From IMG/VR virus record IMGVR_UViG_3300021420_000004, positions 1 through 62,116 of that record: 62,116 nucleotides of DNA. The stretch is one strand, 5' to 3'. The notes below the pieces were generated by a model. It saw only the letters and a list, made by a program, of their open reading frames with translations. It did no database searches and was not told the origin of the DNA. This DNA is from a virus. Made by a program: the position numbers and the translations under genes. How positions within the stretch are numbered: the first letter of the stretch is position 1; each line of letters begins with the position of its first letter. Below are positions 3,268 to 33,528 of the stretch, piece after piece.

Positions 3268-4005
3268 TTACTTGTTATGCGGCGTCTCCAAGGGCCAAAA
3301 TTGGACGATCCTCGCCTGCGCCCGCACCTGCGACTTACACACTGGGCACGCGGTCACCGGGTCATGCCCGCCGGACCGCAGTTGTGCGAATCGGTGCATC
3401 CCCAGCAGGAACGGCTTCGGCGCTCGATCCCCTTTCTTCTTTGCCACGTCGCCGCAGGTCATACATTGCGCTTCCCAAGCGGTCTCGACCACGATCTCCG
3501 GTTCCGCCGCGAGCACCTTCAGGAATTGCTCCATGCGTGCGCCGGGAGTGGCTGGGACCAGCGGCTGCTTTAGCTTCACAAGGATGGTGCCGATCTGCGA
3601 GTTGCCGGATCGCTCGACGACCGTCTTGACCCAATACTCAGTCAGCTTCACGCCGTCGTGCTTGCCCGAGGAGTCAAGGATCGTGCATTCCATGTTGGTC
3701 GCCAGAAATGGCTTGCCGTCGTTCATCTTGGGATAGCAGAACGCCGCGAATCGCTGAAGGTTTCCTTTGGAGTCCTTGATATCCACCTGCTTCAGCTTGG
3801 CCCGCCATTTGCCGTCTGGTAGCGGAGGAGGGACGGCGTAGGCATCGCCAGCCGGATTCTCGCTTAGTTGCTCCGACATCAGCCGGGGATCATTCAGGTC
3901 AATTACCTCTGCCGCCTGCGCCGATCCATTCGCGCCGTGGGTTGTGGTTGCGGAGGCTTCTGAAGGCCCCCCTTCATAGGTGGGTTCAAACGATGGTGTA
4001 CTCAT
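3268..4005 (-). CDS. Zinc-ribbon protein next to Sak4-like ATPase (possible ssDNA-binding/recombination accessory)
   Basis: A 245-aa protein. ATG 4005 overlaps the ATPase stop (ATGA) and has AAGGAGG 10 bases upstream; the longer open frame above it is antisense-frame noise. N-terminal 50 residues are low-complexity and acidic. The central region (KWRAKLKQVDIKDSKGN onward) looks like beta strands of an OB or single-strand-binding type. The C-terminus has CMTCGD and, about 40 residues later, CPVCKS, forming a four-Cys zinc site. Phage Sak4-type ATPases are commonly neighboured by an SSB-like protein, so that role is inferred from context plus the zinc site. Confidence 0.7.
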   Translation of the reverse strand: MSTPSFEPTYEGGPSEASATTTHGANGSAQAAEVIDLNDPRLMSEQLSENPAGDAYAVPPPLPDGKWRAKLKQVDIKDSKGNLQRFAAFCYPKMNDGKPFLATNMECTILDSSGKHDGVKLTEYWVKTVVERSGNSQIGTILVKLKQPLVPATPGARMEQFLKVLAAEPEIVVETAWEAQCMTCGDVAKKKGDRAPKPFLLGMHRFAQLRSGGHDPVTACPVCKSQVRAQARIVQFWPLETPHNK

Positions 4006-5057
4006 TTGGTTACAGCCTCCTTGGGAATAGAAATTCGTGCAACGCCTGACGTGCCAGAGAGCAGACGACCAAGCCGCTGATCCATCTTTTCGCGCCAGCC
4101 TTTCAACGACTCCGACTGCGATTGATCCTTCGACAACTTGTCGCAGAGATGAAGATAGGAGTCGAATCCATGCTCGACCGTCGGCTCGAAGTATCCATAG
4201 GGATACTCCTTCGAGAACTCCTTGATCTTCTCCGGCGGGATGCGTGGCTTCGCCGGGAACATGATCCCCGTCGCCGGATCGGGATGCTTCTTGAAGTACA
4301 TCCGCACGGTGGTATCGACGATGATGGTCTCCAAGGGGTCGCCGCCCTCGGGGTTGGGTACTTTGACCGGACGCTTGATTGCATAATCCTGCGCGTGAAT
4401 ACAATCACCGACCCACGACGGGCAAGCGGCGGTGGCCTTCTTACCCGCAATGGATGGGCCGTAGATCGTCGAACGGTCGTCGTCCTCGGCTTTCGACTCC
4501 AGCGCGGTAAAGAGAACATAGCGCACCGGCAGGGAGAGGAACTGGGTGGTTAGCGCATAGAGCTGATTCTGGACGAAGCCGAAGTGGTTCTGCGTCGAGG
4601 GACCGAACTTCTCTTCTTTCCACTCTCCGTTGACTTGAATGGGCACGTTGAACAGGCCGGTGTAATCATCCTTGCCGAACTTTAACCCTTTGTCAGCTGC
4701 GTAGCGCATCAACATGTTTGACAGAGACGACCAGCCTTCCACGGCAATCCCACCGATCTCGTTCCAGTCCATCGGCTTCATGTTGATCTTCGTCGGGTCT
4801 ATCTCCGAGGTATCTTCGGGCCAGTAACCTTGGCTGATTTTACGAATCATGGGGAGAGGAAGGACCGCCGCCTCGCAGCGGTAGGCACGGATCATGCCAG
4901 CCTCGACCTCTGGTTCGCACGGCCCCCAGCCCCCGCCGTCCGACGAGAACAGGCAGGTAGATTTGCCAGTGGTCTCAGCTATATAGTGGGAGAACTGCTT
5001 GACCATGCCAGTTTTCCATGAGCCGGAAGGTCCGTAGATAACCCCGCTTCTAGCCAC
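4002..5057 (-). CDS. RecA-fold P-loop ATPase, Sak4-like single-strand annealing/recombination protein
   Basis: A 351-aa protein with a Walker A GPSGSWKTG at residues 9-17, right at the N-terminus as in Sak4/RecA-core phage recombinases. A hydrophobic strand GGIAVEGWSSL corresponds to Walker B (with Glu in place of Asp), and YVLFTALESKAEDD matches the next core strand. Overlaps its upstream gene by 8 bases and its downstream neighbour by 4. Expected role: ATP-dependent handling of single-stranded DNA during recombination-dependent replication. Other AAA/RecA-type phage NTPases have the same look, so the subfamily is less certain than the fold. Confidence 0.8.
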   Translation of the reverse strand: MARSGVIYGPSGSWKTGMVKQFSHYIAETTGKSTCLFSSDGGGWGPCEPEVEAGMIRAYRCEAAVLPLPMIRKISQGYWPEDTSEIDPTKINMKPMDWNEIGGIAVEGWSSLSNMLMRYAADKGLKFGKDDYTGLFNVPIQVNGEWKEEKFGPSTQNHFGFVQNQLYALTTQFLSLPVRYVLFTALESKAEDDDRSTIYGPSIAGKKATAACPSWVGDCIHAQDYAIKRPVKVPNPEGGDPLETIIVDTTVRMYFKKHPDPATGIMFPAKPRIPPEKIKEFSKEYPYGYFEPTVEHGFDSYLHLCDKLSKDQSQSESLKGWREKMDQRLGRLLSGTSGVARISIPKEAVTK

Positions 5058-10515: not shown

Positions 10516-10680
10516 CTACTTAAAGTTGACAAGCTCAATCAGGTCCTTACATGCGAGAATAATCTCGCAGGCGCGGCGCTCGGGAGTCTTGCGATGTACG
10601 TCACCTTTGATGGAGGGATAAGCGTCCCCTAGATAATAGGAGACACGTCCCAGCAAACTATAAGCTTCCCAAGGCGTCAC
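10516..10680 (-). CDS. Hypothetical protein, 54 aa, GTG start
   Basis: Begins at GTG 10680, overlapping the nuclease stop (GTGA), and ends 9 bases before the propeller gene. Reads (M)TPWEAYSLLGRVSYYLGDA, then a helical segment RRACEIILACKDLIELVNF. Compact, probably helical. Not recognised. Confidence 0.6.
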   Translation of the reverse strand: MTPWEAYSLLGRVSYYLGDAYPSIKGDVHRKTPERRACEIILACKDLIELVNFK

Positions 10681-12278
10681 GATTTTTCTCCAGTTGATAG
10701 TGCAGCGGCGAGTCGTTCCGCTTCGTGATTACAGGTCCGGGCGACAAAGCGCCCCGTCGCCATCGGATCGCGCCGCACGTCTTCGCCACCATAACACACT
10801 TTCACGAAGGCGCATTCAGTGGGGTAGGAGCAAGCTTTCCGCGTTTTTCTGAACTTACGATTCAGCAAACTACGCCGCTCTCCGTCATCGACTGCGGATT
10901 CTACCAGAGCCACGTTTTCCGCGATCTCCGTCTCTTGCTCCTCTATTTCCTCCATAAAATCTCGAAGATCGTCATCGTTGCGATACACGGTAATCGGTGG
11001 AATAAAAACCGCGTCCAAGGGATGCTGACTCGTGTATCCAAGCGCCTGCGCGGAGGACTTCCATCCCAGAGGTCGCGGCTCCATGCCCACGGTCGAGTCG
11101 AACGCGGACATCGCCTCTTGGGAATCATCCAGCCGGTCGATCCATCGCTTCACGTCGTCCACCGGCTCTGGCTTCCAATGGCCGTAGTAGAGATTCGTCG
11201 CGCCTCCATCTTCCTTGATGTAGTCGTAGGACCAGCATTCGTCGCCAAGGTTGAAGGCAGATCCCTTCGCCGCTGTGCCTCGCGCCACATAACGACGGAT
11301 CAGGTGAGACTTCTGCGAGCGAACCTCGAAGCCGAACCGCGCTGACAACTCTTTATCCTTCCAGCGCTCCCCCTTGAGCATGTATTCGTAGCGGATGCCA
11401 AGGATGCGGGGCGGGGCGGGGAGTCCATGAAGGTAAACAGCTATACGGGGATCACACTCTAACCCATTACCATGATGAATGTCCGTCCACCAGTTCTGTA
11501 ATCGCCGCTCCACCTCCACTCCCTCGCTCAATCCCTGCATATCATGCTGCGCGTCCAGCTCCTTCCGGCGATCCCAGCTCGCGGCGGTCTTGAACGACAT
11601 GAGATACAGACTGTTATCCGAACGGGATCGCAGCAGTGCATCAGGACGGGAGCAGAATACAATCGCCGCGCCGTCGCGCCGGTCATCCTCGTAATACTTA
11701 TCGGGATCGACATGCGCCAACTCCCAAGTCCCCTCCCGCTCCACCTCCAGCACCTCGAACTCCTCCAGCAACGGTCGCAGCCGCCGTCTGGCATACGCCC
11801 GCACCAGCCCCTCAACCAGCGCGGACTGCTCCTTCCACAGATACTCGTCGAACTGGGATTGCCCGTTCGCTTGCGTGTCGTACAGCGCCTTCAACGTGGG
11901 ATCGTCGATCTCGACTCCCAGCTCCGAGGCCGTCGCCGTCATCTGCTGCTGAAGGTCGGTCGGCGCGGTCATCGCCGCCTGCTCGTTGGGATCGACGGCG
12001 AGGGCGTTGCGGTATTGCGCGAGGTCGGCTATCGCCAACTCCACCGCCGTATCTTCAATCGACGGCAGCGAGACGTTTATATCGTCGATGTTCGACGTGC
12101 TATAAGCGACCAGTAGCGTCTCCAATCCTTTGTGAACCGCCCCACCAACCGCGAGCGGCAACGGCTTCCTCGCTGGCGTCAATCCCACGCCCGACTGGTG
12201 GTATTCCAGCCAGCGGAGGCGATTGCAGCGCTGGAAGCTCTCGATGCGACTTCTATCGGTGAATACGGCCCGCGTCAT
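10677..12278 (-). CDS. PD-(D/E)XK nuclease-fold protein, RecB/Cas4-like with C-terminal Cys cluster
   Basis: A 533-aa protein. N-terminus FTDRSRIESFQRCNRLRWLE matches the opening of RecB/AddB/Cas4-type nucleases (S...F..CP..W). About 30 residues later GGAVHKGLETLL matches the conserved G..H..L. A mid-domain RPDALL...YLMSFKTA corresponds to the catalytic G.(I/V)D......(D/E)xK block, but Ser occupies the acidic position before xK. The C-terminus has CSYPTECAFVKVC and a later Cys, a probable 4Fe-4S site. ATG 12278 makes an ATGA overlap. Expected role: processing DNA ends for recombination. Catalytic competence needs checking. Confidence 0.8.
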   Translation of the reverse strand: MTRAVFTDRSRIESFQRCNRLRWLEYHQSGVGLTPARKPLPLAVGGAVHKGLETLLVAYSTSNIDDINVSLPSIEDTAVELAIADLAQYRNALAVDPNEQAAMTAPTDLQQQMTATASELGVEIDDPTLKALYDTQANGQSQFDEYLWKEQSALVEGLVRAYARRRLRPLLEEFEVLEVEREGTWELAHVDPDKYYEDDRRDGAAIVFCSRPDALLRSRSDNSLYLMSFKTAASWDRRKELDAQHDMQGLSEGVEVERRLQNWWTDIHHGNGLECDPRIAVYLHGLPAPPRILGIRYEYMLKGERWKDKELSARFGFEVRSQKSHLIRRYVARGTAAKGSAFNLGDECWSYDYIKEDGGATNLYYGHWKPEPVDDVKRWIDRLDDSQEAMSAFDSTVGMEPRPLGWKSSAQALGYTSQHPLDAVFIPPITVYRNDDDLRDFMEEIEEQETEIAENVALVESAVDDGERRSLLNRKFRKTRKACSYPTECAFVKVCYGGEDVRRDPMATGRFVARTCNHEAERLAAALSTGEKS

Positions 12279-12568
12279 TTCCCCACCCGATCCACGACCA
12301 CCTCGCACTGCACAATCTGCGCCGCAATCCCCTGTGACAACTTGCCAGGACCGTCCAGCCGCACGAACGTGCGCCCCTCGTCCTCAAGGTTGTATGATCC
12401 CCGACTCACCGAATACAATTCGAATTTATCGGGGGCCGTGGACGTAATCTGCCATACCTCAAAGTACCCAGTCGTGGTAGAGTCCTCACACACAATCCCC
12501 ACGCGCCGCAACACGTCGCGGCCCTTAGGATGCAACTCAACGTATGTGCCCGCCTTGATTTCTGTCAT
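12275..12568 (-). CDS. Hypothetical beta-rich protein, 97 aa
   Basis: Starts MTEIKAGTYVELHPKGRDVL with strand-rich sequence (GYFEVWQITSTAPDKFELYS), resembling a small barrel. ATGA overlaps on both sides. A role in the nuclease operon is inferred only from position. Confidence 0.6.
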   Translation of the reverse strand: MTEIKAGTYVELHPKGRDVLRRVGIVCEDSTTTGYFEVWQITSTAPDKFELYSVSRGSYNLEDEGRTFVRLDGPGKLSQGIAAQIVQCEVVVDRVGK

Positions 12569-12738
12569 CGTCCCGCCTCCTTTTGCTCAACCTTCTCGAT
12601 CCCCCACCGTACCAGCGTCCGAATCATACTCGCCAAGGTCCGACCATCCTCGACCGCCATCCTCTCGACTCGATCCAGCATCGCCGGACTCATGCGGAAT
12701 GAAACCAACTCGGTGAACCTGTCTACTTTTGCCCTCAT
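12565..12738 (-). CDS. Ribbon-helix-helix (CopG/Arc-like) regulator, 57 aa
   Basis: Reads MRAKVDRFTELVSFRMSPAM, then LDRVERMAVEDGRTLASMIR and a C-terminal helix: a strand (TELVSFRM) plus two helices, the RHH layout. The start at ATG 12738 lies 8 bases downstream of the -10 box, so its mRNA would be leaderless or nearly so; a longer frame to 12774 would start inside the promoter. First gene of the leftward transcript. Likely an autoregulated repressor of the divergent control region. Confidence 0.75.
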   Translation of the reverse strand: MRAKVDRFTELVSFRMSPAMLDRVERMAVEDGRTLASMIRTLVRWGIEKVEQKEAGR

Positions 12739-12746
12739 GCGAGGAC

Positions 12747-12774
12747 ATATTAGCACGTCTGAATACGATGTCAA
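12747..12774 (-). promoter_or_regulatory. Promoter for the 12.7 kb leftward operon
   Basis: Minus strand TTGACA (12774-12769), a 16-base spacer, TAATAT (12752-12747), then ATG after 8 bases. Near-consensus. It implies a leaderless first gene. Confidence 0.65.
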
Positions 12775-12797: not shown

Positions 12798-12881
12798 AAA
12801 TACTTTATAACATTCACCATCCGCTACAGTTACGAAGACACAAATTTACAATATTTTCACTATTCTCTTGACTCCGAGGGG

Positions 12882-12890
12882 TGATAAGAT
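12882..12890 (+). promoter_or_regulatory. Extended -10 promoter for the Rep-like gene
   Basis: TGATAAGAT (extended -10, TG at 12882-12883 and TAAGAT at 12885-12890) inside GAGGGGTGATAAGAT, which parallels GAGGGGTGATATGGT at the 16.37 kb promoter. No good -35 at 17 bases; a TTGACT lies only 11 bases upstream. Predicted start near 12897 gives a leader of about 100 bases. Confidence 0.45.
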
Positions 12891-12904
12891 GTAGTCAACA
12901 GAAG

Positions 12905-12996
12905 GTTGCCTGAGCAACGAAATCCCTGCGTGAGCAGGCCGGTTTACATGGGAGTGTCCGCCGGTCTGCTCAGCGTAGGAGAAAACTGGACACTCC
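12905..12996 (+). promoter_or_regulatory. Structured leader: hairpin plus H-type pseudoknot before the Rep-like gene
   Basis: A 5-bp hairpin GTTGC/GCAAC with a CTGA loop at 12905-12918 is followed by two interleaved helices. S1 pairs 12931-12942 (TGAGCAGGCCGG) with 12961-12972 (CCGGTCTGCTCA), 12 pairs with one G-U. S2 pairs 12951-12959 (GGAGTGTCC) with 12988-12996 (GGACACTCC), 9 perfect pairs. S2's 5' strand lies in S1's loop and its 3' strand ends 2 bases before ATG 12999, so the two form an H-type pseudoknot spanning the AGGAG at 12977-12981. This would gate translation of the downstream gene. The alternative is DNA-level operator repeats. Confidence 0.55.
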
Positions 12997-12998
12997 GA

Positions 12999-14279
12999 AT
13001 GGCTACTACGCCGTCGTGCATCTCCGCTAACGATCCAGCCATCACCAATCAGATCCTAAACGAGAATCCCAACGGCGATTCCTACGAATCCCAACGCAAG
13101 CGCCAACGCGATCCTTACTTTTTTGAACGCGACGCCTCTGGCGCGTGGCGAATCGTATCCTGGCTCGAACCTCGCGTCCATCGTGAGCAGCGTGAAGTCG
13201 CGCTCCAACTCCTCCGCGATCACGGCTGGATCGCCCGCGCTGACGCTATCGTGTCCTGTGGCCGCGCATTTATTCCCTTCAAGGGCTGCCTTGAAAAAGG
13301 TCCTGACGGGCGCTGGCACGAACTCCATGCCGTCGTGGGATTCTGCAATACCGCTTTCTGTTCTTATTGCTCTGATCCTAAGCGCAGATTAGATCATTTT
13401 CTAAACCTTGACCACAATCGCGTCATCCATTCTATCTACGCGATAACAAACACGCTCTCAGCTCGTGGGCTCCCCACATCAGTCAAGCGAATCGTCGTAG
13501 CCTCCAGAACCACCAAGACCACCAAAGGGCTAGGTATTCGTCAGCGTCAAGAAATCCTACAGAAGCAAATCGACCGATGGCGCGAGCGTGTTTGTCGCCA
13601 GTATGGAATCGGCACCGAGGAGCACGGGCTGCTTATCGCCGACGGCCTTCGTAAGGGGGGGGCCAGCGCTAAGATATTCTACGTAGGCCCCGACATTTCT
13701 GATTCCTTCCTGCGTGACACTTGGAAGGAAATCGTCGGAATTGGCTGGGAGTTCGATATAGACAGTGCCACCATTTGCGCCCACGAAATAGCGACCGACG
13801 AAATCGGCTGTCGCGGAATGGTCGAAGCAGAACTTCAGCGTCTCATGGAGGCCAATCACCAATTCGTCGCAATACGCAAGCCAAAGGAGCTGGCGGAACT
13901 ACATGTCATGTTCCGTAATTATCGAATGGTGCGCCGGATAGGATCGTTTTATGGCCAGAAGATCGTAAGCGATTCGGAGCAGATTACCGATATCGAGTCA
14001 TCCGAGATGACTGAGGCCGAAATCAACGCTGCCATAAACGCTATGCCCGTCGTTCCATCGGAGCTGGGATTGTGTATTACCTGTCAGGCTCCCCTAGTTG
14101 CGCTTATCAATCATAAGCCTAGCAATTACCAAGACTTAGACTCTAAGGCGATGCAGGTTAAGTATTACAAACCGAAGGAGCGTCAGGAACATAAACATAG
14201 TACCGTACATAAGTGTCCAGCCGACAGCAGATTGAGAGGAGATGTGAAGGCACTTATGAGCCAATCGCCGCCGTCCTGA
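12999..14279 (+). CDS. Putative replication initiator (degenerate rolling-circle Rep-like), 426 aa
   Basis: Start at ATG 12999, directly after the structured leader; the frame is open to a TTG at 12906, but that would code through the pseudoknot. Block order resembles plasmid rolling-circle Reps: a Cys cluster FCNTAFCSYC, then KRIVVASRTTK (like the LT.T block), then GPDISDSFLRDTWKEIVG followed by WEFDID (like GPYIP...LW...TG..VDI), then MFRNYRMVRRIGSFYG. The HxH of the HUH motif and a clear YxxK are missing, so nickase activity is doubtful. C-terminal CITC and HKC add a metal site. Inference from order of weak motifs only; it could be an unrelated DNA-binding protein. Confidence 0.4.
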   Translation: MATTPSCISANDPAITNQILNENPNGDSYESQRKRQRDPYFFERDASGAWRIVSWLEPRVHREQREVALQLLRDHGWIARADAIVSCGRAFIPFKGCLEKGPDGRWHELHAVVGFCNTAFCSYCSDPKRRLDHFLNLDHNRVIHSIYAITNTLSARGLPTSVKRIVVASRTTKTTKGLGIRQRQEILQKQIDRWRERVCRQYGIGTEEHGLLIADGLRKGGASAKIFYVGPDISDSFLRDTWKEIVGIGWEFDIDSATICAHEIATDEIGCRGMVEAELQRLMEANHQFVAIRKPKELAELHVMFRNYRMVRRIGSFYGQKIVSDSEQITDIESSEMTEAEINAAINAMPVVPSELGLCITCQAPLVALINHKPSNYQDLDSKAMQVKYYKPKERQEHKHSTVHKCPADSRLRGDVKALMSQSPPS

Positions 14280-31189: not shown

Positions 31190-32206
31190 ATGGCGTTACT
31201 AGACCTTCAGACCGAATTGCGCGGCGCGGTGCCGAAGCTCTCTTTCAACTACACGAAGACGCTCATCAATCGCGCCTACGCCGATCTCCGCCGTCAGAAC
31301 CTTTGGTCGTTCCAACTCTTCGAGGGCCAGTGGATCGCTCCGCCCCAGCTCGCCTCGACCGGCACCGTCACCACCATCCAAGGTTCCTCGTCTGTCACGT
31401 TTGATGCCACCGCTACTGCCGCCATTAACGCCCTCGCTTCTTCCCAGCCATACTCCCTCATCACCCAGCGTCAGTTCCGCATCGCCAGCGGTGGCATCTA
31501 TAATATCTGGGGATGGAATCCCTCAACTGGTGTGGCAACCCTCGACCGTTGGTACGGAGAACCGTCGCTGACCGGAGCCCAGTTCTCGATCTTCCAGTGC
31601 TACTACGTCCCCATCGTCGCCAATTCCCCGATTAAGGACTTCCGCACCTGGATCAGCGTCCGCGACATGCAGGATTTCATCGACCTCTACACCGAACGCT
31701 ACCAGATGCGCGATATTGACGTGCAAGACCCGCAGCGGACTTGGTACGGCATCCCTTCGGATGTGATCCCTTACCAAGATGACCAGAATCCAGCATCGCC
31801 AACCTACGGATCGCTGATGTTTTTCCTGTGGGGGATTCCTACCTTCAACGTGAACTATCAGCTCTATGGCATCCGCTTCGGGCCGGACCTCGCCAAGCCA
31901 ACCGACCAGCTTCCCTATGTGATCGGACAGGATGTCGTGATTGCCCGCGCCAAGTATTACGCCTACGAATGGGCCGAGGCGAACAAGGACCTCACCCCGC
32001 GTAACTCAGGGCCGGATTTCAAATTCCTGATGGGAGCGGCGAACAAGGAATACGACACTCTATTTCGTAAGTACCGTCAGATGGACCGGGATCGAGTTGA
32101 CAACTGGTTCGCCACGCGGACGCGATCCAACTACGCGAAGTGGCTTGCCTTCTATAATACTCAGGGCGGAGTCGCATCACCAGGATTCGCAGGAGTGCAA
32201 TCCTAA
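31190..32206 (+). CDS. Head-tail adaptor/tail tubular-like protein, 338 aa
   Basis: Begins MALLDLQTELRGAVPKLSFN followed by TLINRAYADLRRQNLWSFQL, a helical opening like podovirus adaptor proteins (T7 gp11/P22 gp4-type: 'l...in.a..ei.....W'). Central beta domain, then C-terminal helices (ARAKYYAYEWAEANKDLTPR, KEYDTLFRKYRQMD). The 769-aa protein downstream has a similar helical entry. Expected to form a ring under the portal. Confidence 0.6.
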   Translation: MALLDLQTELRGAVPKLSFNYTKTLINRAYADLRRQNLWSFQLFEGQWIAPPQLASTGTVTTIQGSSSVTFDATATAAINALASSQPYSLITQRQFRIASGGIYNIWGWNPSTGVATLDRWYGEPSLTGAQFSIFQCYYVPIVANSPIKDFRTWISVRDMQDFIDLYTERYQMRDIDVQDPQRTWYGIPSDVIPYQDDQNPASPTYGSLMFFLWGIPTFNVNYQLYGIRFGPDLAKPTDQLPYVIGQDVVIARAKYYAYEWAEANKDLTPRNSGPDFKFLMGAANKEYDTLFRKYRQMDRDRVDNWFATRTRSNYAKWLAFYNTQGGVASPGFAGVQS

Positions 32207-33528
32207 TGCAGGCATACTCCAACTTCGCACAGCAAGGAGACGTTTCCGTAGTCACCTCCGGCCTCTCCTCGACCACCGTCGTCGAAGGCTCCTATCCCCT
32301 CTGCTTCGTCTCCGTCTACCTCCACGGCTCCGGCACTCTCGCGTCGATCTACTCCGACAATGGCGTCACTCCGCTCTCGAATCCCTTCACCGCGAACTCG
32401 AACGGTCAATTCACCTTCTACGCGGCGAACAATCGCTATGACGTGACCCTCTCGAACAACTCTGGGTCCGGTCCCGCGTCCCCGATCACGATCCCCGATA
32501 TCCTGCTCAACGATCCCGCAGGCGGCGGTGGCGTCGTCAATTCCGTCTTCGGTCGCAACGGCACCGTCATCGCCCAGACCGGAGACTATAACGTATCGCA
32601 GGTGACAGGCGCGGCTCCTTTAGCCTCGCCCACCTTCACGGGAATCCCCGCTGCCCCGACCGCGACCTTCGGCACTAACACAACGCAGCTTGCCACAACC
32701 GCCTTCGTGCAGGCTGCGTTGCCATCCATCCCGGTCACTTCAGTATTCGGTCGGACAGGAGTGGTCGTCGCGGTCAGCGGAGATTACAACGTCTCTCAGG
32801 TCACCGGGGCCGCGCCGCTTGCTTCCCCCGCGCTGACCGGAGTTCCAACCGCGCCGACGGCAGCCTTTGGCACGAACACGACTCAGCTTGCCACCTGCGC
32901 CTTCGTCCAAGCCAACCTCCCGTTTATCGGCGTGACCAGTTGGAACGCTCGCACGGGCGCGGTCACTCCTCAGACCGGCGATTATACCGTCAGCCAGGTG
33001 ACCGGCGCGGCTCCGCTTGCATCTCCCGCGCTCACTGGCGTCCCTACGGCACCGACCGCCGCGCTCGGAACCAGCACGACGCAGATCGCAACCTGCCAGT
33101 TCGTGCAGCAGACCGGGAACACTCCGGTTCTCTCGGCGTCCGTCACCCTGACCTCCGCTCAGCTCCTTGCGCTCCATGGGACGCCGATCACTCTCGTCCC
33201 AGCCCCCGGCGCGGGCGTCGTCATCTATCCGACGCAGATCGTCCTCGAATATAAATACGGCACTGTTGCGTACACGATCAACGGCGACTCCATCATCCTC
33301 GATTACAACAACGCTGGCTCGGCGCTCAAGCAGACCTTTGCCGAGACCGGATTCTTCGATCAAACCGCGTCTCAGATCGGATTCCTCGATGGAGTGGTGG
33401 CGCGGGCGGCATTGACGGTCGCAGCTAATCAACCGTTCACCATCGGCGCGTCCGGCGGATCGGATATGACTTTAGGAAACGGGACCTTGGTGGTATACAT
33501 CTACTATGCACTCATCACGTTGCAGTGA
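32206..33528 (+). CDS. Tail fibre protein with three 66-aa repeats
   Basis: 440 aa; TAATG overlap with the adaptor gene. Residues 1-105 form an anchor-like N-terminus; residues about 111-302 are three repeats of exactly 66 residues (SVFGRNG.., GDYNVSQVTGAAPLASP, TGVPTAPTA, TTQLATTAFVQ); the rest is a C-terminal beta domain. The VFGR.G.V.....GDY repeat is characteristic of phage tail fibres. Expected to trimerise and contact the host surface. The DNA repeats are partially diverged copies and could recombine. Confidence 0.75.
   Translation: MQAYSNFAQQGDVSVVTSGLSSTTVVEGSYPLCFVSVYLHGSGTLASIYSDNGVTPLSNPFTANSNGQFTFYAANNRYDVTLSNNSGSGPASPITIPDILLNDPAGGGGVVNSVFGRNGTVIAQTGDYNVSQVTGAAPLASPTFTGIPAAPTATFGTNTTQLATTAFVQAALPSIPVTSVFGRTGVVVAVSGDYNVSQVTGAAPLASPALTGVPTAPTAAFGTNTTQLATCAFVQANLPFIGVTSWNARTGAVTPQTGDYTVSQVTGAAPLASPALTGVPTAPTAALGTSTTQIATCQFVQQTGNTPVLSASVTLTSAQLLALHGTPITLVPAPGAGVVIYPTQIVLEYKYGTVAYTINGDSIILDYNNAGSALKQTFAETGFFDQTASQIGFLDGVVARAALTVAANQPFTIGASGGSDMTLGNGTLVVYIYYALITLQ

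Follow-up and report, generated by a model that had tools for sequence, protein, structure and literature searches.

In the leaders of gene 32 from phages T4, T2, and RB69, an H-type pseudoknot precedes a replication-type gene for a zinc-containing, nucleic-acid-binding protein, and translation is under control; in T4, the knot is located 67 nt ahead of the start codon and nucleates cooperative binding (PMC3014915). Pseudoknots that overlap the ribosome-binding site (RBS) and have alternative hairpin and pseudoknot states are found in the E. coli rpsO (S15) and alpha operon (S4) leaders, both of which belong to ribosomal genes with known protein ligands, and the S15 operators differ widely in sequence (PMC10931766). 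For the replication gene repZ of ColIb-P9 (IncI-alpha), a pseudoknot near the RBS forms by loop pairing and is activating, and an antisense RNA blocks it. Lastly, the preQ1-I type III and SAM/SAH riboswitches are small H-type pseudoknots that occlude the Shine-Dalgarno sequence (SD) (PMC11625349), and these have conserved ligand-binding bases and precede metabolic genes.

The leader that we describe here is from a linear virus record of 62,116 bases (IMG/VR record IMGVR_UViG_3300021420_000004), the whole of which was analyzed and is hereafter called the window. Its terminase, capsid, DNA polymerase, and recombination genes are those of a tailed phage, and a host in the Acidobacteriota is likely, since the predicted terminase has the Tunturiibacter phages Tunturi_1 and Tunturi_2 as its nearest named phages (29.5% identity). 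With T4 gene 32, the leader has in common the phage setting, the H-type pseudoknot, the replication-type zinc protein downstream, and (by prediction) translational control. However, whereas gene 32 has a knot well upstream and an A/U-rich, unstructured RBS, the window RBS is structured and overlapped by a knot that cannot be aligned between groups of relatives and that precedes three gene families. The RBS overlap, the alternative hairpin and pseudoknot states, and the SD in a loop (in the window) are instead as in rpsO and the alpha operon, though no gene behind the leaders is ribosomal. As in repZ, loop pairing gives a pseudoknot near the RBS of a replication gene, yet the window knot extends over the RBS itself, and a simple consensus scan showed no antisense promoter above chance there; as for the riboswitches, neither conserved ligand-binding bases nor metabolic genes were found. 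By analogy, then, the leader resembles rpsO and the alpha operon, whose operators overlap the RBS, in how it would work and T4 gene 32 in its setting, with membership established in none of these systems. No description of the element was found in the literature searched, the coverage of which was partial.

Structure of the leader

The original prediction had two interleaved stems in this leader, and both are present: S1 joins 12931-12942 to 12961-12972 through 12 pairs (one G-U), and S2 joins 12951-12959 to 12988-12996 through nine perfect pairs, ending as described 2 nt before the ATG at 12999. Present too is the small GTTGC/GCAAC hairpin upstream of the stems (Table 1). The pseudoknot loops are 8 nt for L1 (7 nt if U12943-G12960 is counted as a 13th pair of S1), 0-1 nt for L2, and 15 nt for L3. 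The AGGAG had been pictured as trapped between the 3' strands, and indeed it lies in L3 of the pseudoknot, but it is not merely trapped, as the lower extension of S1 pairs it in the nested minimum-energy fold. In the nested ensemble, A12977, G12978, and G12979 are at least 97% paired and G12981 about 79% paired, with A12980 bulged.

Table 1. Positions of genes and leader elements at the divergent locus of the window.
Feature	Position	Strand	Remarks
Divergent exonuclease-like gene	10677-12308	-	Used to locate the same locus in relatives
Arc/CopG-like ribbon-helix-helix gene	12565-12774	-	Divergent from the leader
Putative promoter	12868-12895	+	TTGACT 12868-12873, 16-nt spacer, TGTAGT 12890-12895; by inspection
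5' hairpin GUUGC-CUGA-GCAAC	12905-12918	+	Near the presumed 5' end; -5.6 kcal/mol
Lower S1 extension, 5' strand	12923-12930	+	Pairs with 12974-12982, covering AGGAG
GNRA-loop hairpin CCUGC-GUGA-GCAGG	12925-12938	+	Competes with S1, which it would disrupt; -8.3 kcal/mol
S1, 5' strand	12931-12943	+
S2, 5' strand GGAGUGUCC	12951-12959	+	In the S1 loop; its first four bases, GGAG, repeat the SD core
S1, 3' strand	12960-12972	+
AGGAG	12977-12981	+	Sole good SD-like sequence; in pseudoknot L3, 17 nt before ATG
Weak alternative hairpin	12978-12996	+	GGAG 12978-12981 with CUCC 12993-12996; loop holds GGACA
S2, 3' strand GGACACUCC	12988-12996	+	Stops 2 nt short of the start codon
Rep-like zinc protein gene (426 aa, class A)	12999-14279	+	N-terminus common to relatives supports the start

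Pseudoknots were scored as the summed stacking of an H-type pair of stems, without a full loop model. On this measure, the window leader scores -49.7 as compared with -23.0 (sd 3.8) in dinucleotide shuffles, with none of 300 shuffles reaching the same value. It ranks first among 4,962 tiles of 110 nt taken from both strands and first among 757 start codons (ORFs of at least 60 aa), for which the runner-up is -36.4. Interleaved helices beyond chance, as an H-type pseudoknot leader overlapping the RBS would have, are thus found beside this start codon. As for the nested alternative, the S1 core has an energy of -23.1, which becomes -34.7 with the lower stem, and S2 stacking contributes -20.0. 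Since the pseudoknot state is the S1 core plus S2 stacking minus a knot penalty, the two states are modeled as close in energy, the penalty (several kcal/mol) being uncertain. Moreover, the lower S1 stem and S2 should sterically exclude each other, since with the lower stem formed, a helix of some 20 bp would have to be spanned by no more than about 5 nt.

The distance of 17 nt from the AGGAG to the ATG is unusually long. A second GGAG (12951-12954), located in the S1 loop, competes for the CUCC at 12993-12996. Upstream, the -10 element of the window's own putative promoter is weak and fell below the threshold of the promoter scan, and the transcript is expected to start near 12902.

That the window SD sits in L3 brings to mind the control by ribosomal proteins in rpsO and the alpha operon, and in E. 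coli rpsO both the SD and the AUG are inside the S15-bound pseudoknot (PMC10931766). In an entrapment of this sort, the 30S subunit would be bound but kept from forming the initiation complex, with host S15, S4, or S1 tipping the balance. We regard this as distinctly unlikely here, given that the downstream genes are not ribosomal and that the SD of most relatives is in or beside S2 rather than free in a loop.

Downstream genes

Two further in-frame starts of the Rep-like gene (TTG 12906 and ATG 12948) were considered and rejected, as the N-terminus shared by the relatives begins at 12999. Across the related phages, the downstream genes fall into three families, and no similarity in sequence is detectable from one family to another. 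Class A includes the window protein and those of L043, L045, L048, L049, L053, L068, L080, and others, most of which have a zinc motif; class B (L044, L046, L047, and L060) is another zinc family, with no match in the databases; and class C (L055 and L057) consists of AAA ATPases.

The description of the class A gene as Rep-like stands at the level of the fold for family member L053, where a Rep-type fold goes together with a zinc motif. Foldseek gave the predicted L053 fold 116 viral matches at E ≤ 1e-3, and the named ones among those listed are Rep proteins (microvirus replication initiators), though against the PDB nothing was found at this threshold. The L053 model is a modest one (pLDDT 58.9) and that of the window protein a poor one (52.1). 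Pfam and PHROG gave no Rep match. In common with the HUH Reps (microvirus Rep and the IS91-type zinc domain), a beta-alpha-beta-beta-alpha-beta core follows the zinc motif. However, the description does not carry over to the catalytic residues, for the His-U-His and catalytic Tyr of an HUH Rep were not found in the window protein; the class A alignment shows no HUH histidines in it and has SAKIFYV at the equivalent strand.

A zinc protein with a Rep fold is a likely nucleic-acid binder by its model, and T4 gp32 acts through a leader pseudoknot (PMC3014915), so that an autogenous operator can be envisaged, in which the gene's own product would stabilize the pseudoknot in negative feedback. Yet the fold precedes three dissimilar families, AAA ATPases among them, and three families behind one RNA design argue against a purely product-specific operator. 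The leaders also have no recognition sequence in common, and overall we consider autogenous control rather unlikely.

Some further features of these proteins were observed. Around 25 N-terminal residues of the Rep-like protein (NDPRLT.EIL..NP.ADAY; 12999-13070 in the window) recur near the N-terminus of an SSB-like protein of the same phage, which in the window starts at 4005 on the minus strand. This N-terminal copy is seen also in L043 and L048/L039, and the copies match well within a phage, as in L043 (LTSEILTINPEADAY and LTSEILTIDPTADAY); they may represent a docking peptide common to the two proteins or a tract of gene conversion. In many proteins of class A, a second CxxC zinc motif is followed by SPPS, or something very similar, at the C-terminus. 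The SSB-like gene itself follows that of a RecA/Sak4-like AAA protein, the two lying within 3268-5057 on the minus strand, and in the Tunturi_1 annotation a Sak4-like annealing protein and an SSB have the identical order. Elsewhere in the window, there is a tail-fiber-like gene (32206-33528), whose internal repeats self-match at several offsets in relatives.

Recurrence in related phages

Direct homologs of the window protein were found neither in viral_contigs (peptide scan) nor in phages or plasmids. Relatives were located through a scan for the neighboring exonuclease gene family, which identified some 20 related phages carrying a gene at this divergent locus. The exonuclease has no match among named phages, and genome_contigs contained no prophage copies. 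Terminase relatives included L009, which has a distant homolog of the window protein (23% identity) in the same place, divergent from the exonuclease gene, and L007, in which an AAA ATPase gene occupies the equivalent place. In the examined sequences of the close terminase relatives L002-L005, the divergent locus was not found. Across the relatives, the leaders at the divergent gene are visibly of one design.

The comparison took in 21 leaders, that of the window included, for which the divergent gene had been identified, and looked for a compact pseudoknot ending no more than 30 nt from the start. A score of -30 or lower was found in 14 of the 21 syntenic leaders (11 of 18 without L049, L068, and L080, whose starts were chosen with the pseudoknot in view), as against 0.9% of 225 other gene starts at the same loci. 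The difference between the 21 leaders and the control starts has a Mann-Whitney p of 1e-8, and the Fisher-combined shuffle p for the leaders is 4e-15 with the window excluded. Besides the window, the pseudoknot leaders are those of L043, L044, L045, L046, L047, L048 (the same as L009), L049, L053, L055 (the same as L007), L057, L060, L068, and L080. The gene is thus kept with the stems lost in a minority of cases, a compact pseudoknot as strong as these being absent within 100 nt from six class A relatives (L051, L054, L066, L070, L074, and L078) and from L052, whose gene is unassigned. Three of these (L051, L070, and L078, the MQTACNT subgroup) have a three-way junction, the closing stem of which covers or borders the SD, with possible loop-loop contacts of just 4-5 bp.

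In a blind version of the comparison, the best hairpin was taken as S1 beforehand, and its loop was then compared with the downstream stretch. The window S1 loop was complementary to the downstream sequence (p = 0.001), and eight other leaders were individually below 0.05, for a combined p of 1e-5 with the window excluded; L049, L053, and L068 were not individually significant, and L044 and L047 were left out, another hairpin having been picked there. L068, with an S2 ending 1 nt before the ATG, had been viewed as closest to the window in geometry, a view dropped on the failure of its S2 in this test.

Between groups, the leader sequences are unalignable (median identity 52%, as against 49% for shuffled controls), and thus without a conserved core, and the leader has no covariance-model match in Rfam. 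On both grounds, the ligand control that the original prediction had entertained is unlikely. A small-molecule riboswitch of the H-type (preQ1-I, SAM-II, or SAM/SAH-like) would be of similar size, topology, and SD occlusion, but with no such core among the leaders and no metabolic genes downstream, it is barely credible.

Of the 14 pseudoknot leaders, 11 have a TTGAC box at a distance of 121-149 nt upstream of the start, where about two would be expected, and this spacing fits a 5' UTR of approximately 85-110 nt. On the opposite strand, a simple consensus scan found promoters no more often than in shuffled sequence in 13 of 14 leaders, L053 being the exception, which leaves the earlier suggestion of antisense control without support. 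A counter-transcript that competes with S2 formation would suit a replication-type gene with a pseudoknot by its RBS, as in ColIb-P9 repZ, but the repZ pseudoknot activates and is upstream of the RBS (PMC8383071). With the promoter scan as it is, we judge an antisense-controlled leader to be very unlikely.

Common architecture and covariation

All 14 pseudoknot leaders have a small hairpin between S1 and the start, and in 13 of them (not L068) S2 is situated within the loop of this downstream hairpin or next to it (combined p = 2e-5 over the 14). In most leaders, the hairpin holds or borders the SD. For instance, CCCUU[GAUAAGG]AAGGG in L057 stands opposite the S1 loop CCUUAUC, and CUCC[UCGCAG]GGAG in L048 opposite the S1 loop CUGCGA; the downstream hairpin of L044 is UAGCU[UCCCGG]AGCUA. 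The window counterpart is the weak hairpin at 12978-12996, which does not reach significance when the window is taken by itself. Given where S2 lies relative to the SD hairpin, the H-type pseudoknot and the kissing hairpins can be seen as two descriptions of a single design, and the common form, as read from the sequences, is a pair of kissing hairpins predicted to clamp the RBS.

All 19 pairs hold in both L043 and L045, and of the six that differ between the two, four have changed on both sides. Pairing was lost in every slid-register control, and the shuffle control, weak with two sequences, reached the observed value in 31 of 500 cases. In the class B leaders (L044, L046, L047, and L060), the variation falls on pairs 3-5 of S1 and pair 5 of S2, all of which stay paired, several through changes on both sides; here the stems were anchored by hand, as MAFFT misplaced the 3' strands of S2. 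Both stems therefore show compensatory changes among close relatives, none of which is near enough to the window to bear on its own stems.

Rep genes often adjoin their origin, and with a divergent repressor gene adjacent as well, the repeats might function as DNA, either as a replication origin or as operators for proteins, with an incidental RNA fold. Against this, the interleaved arms change in sequence yet keep their complementarity, their position is locked to the start codon, and folding is better on the sense than on the antisense strand in 12 of the 14 leaders. The G-U pairs (20 of 248 across the leaders) count weakly in the same direction, since the scorer allows G-U on the sense strand alone. 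An explanation at the DNA level is, in our opinion, highly improbable.

Proposed mechanism and significance

The claim of a cis-regulatory RNA is well supported by the recurrence at the same locus, in differing sequence, and with compensatory changes, and the element is probably real as a switch or brake on translation. More specifically, sequence comparisons make it reasonably probable that the leader acts in cis as a brake on translation at the RBS. Transcription from the divergent intergenic promoter would give a 5' UTR of about 95 nt, in which the strong hairpin S1 would form and pair its loop with bases adjoining the RBS (S2). In the window, S2 would extend to 2 nt short of the AUG, and the SD would be covered by the lower S1 stem as the alternative; in relatives, the equivalent loop-to-loop contact would clamp a small hairpin that in most holds or borders the SD. 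Either state would block 30S loading, such that the Rep-like gene would be made at a low or gated rate. We infer that the RNA adopts the pseudoknot and represses, and that a factor shifts the balance. This factor would more likely be an RNA-binding protein, either of the host or conserved among the phages, than the product of each gene itself, a metabolite (there being no conserved core and no Rfam match), or an antisense RNA (there being no antisense promoter in 13 of 14).

A broader proposal, which we put forward tentatively as somewhat doubtful, is that of a portable RBS clamp defined by shape alone, in which the loop of the upstream hairpin would kiss that of the SD hairpin. Such a clamp would be kept at one locus while unrelated replication genes swap behind it, in a phage lineage that probably infects Acidobacteriota, and a common trans-acting factor or physiological signal would read the shape.

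Elements conserved in shape alone are missed by sequence-based RNA searches, as this one was by Rfam. The leaders also form a naturally occurring set of compensated variants, with which the gating of 30S binding by pseudoknots and kissing loops may be studied. For the phages themselves, the finding means that related members of the group have RBS-overlapping pseudoknots, as predicted here, before replication-type genes, with the shape conserved and the sequence wholly turned over.
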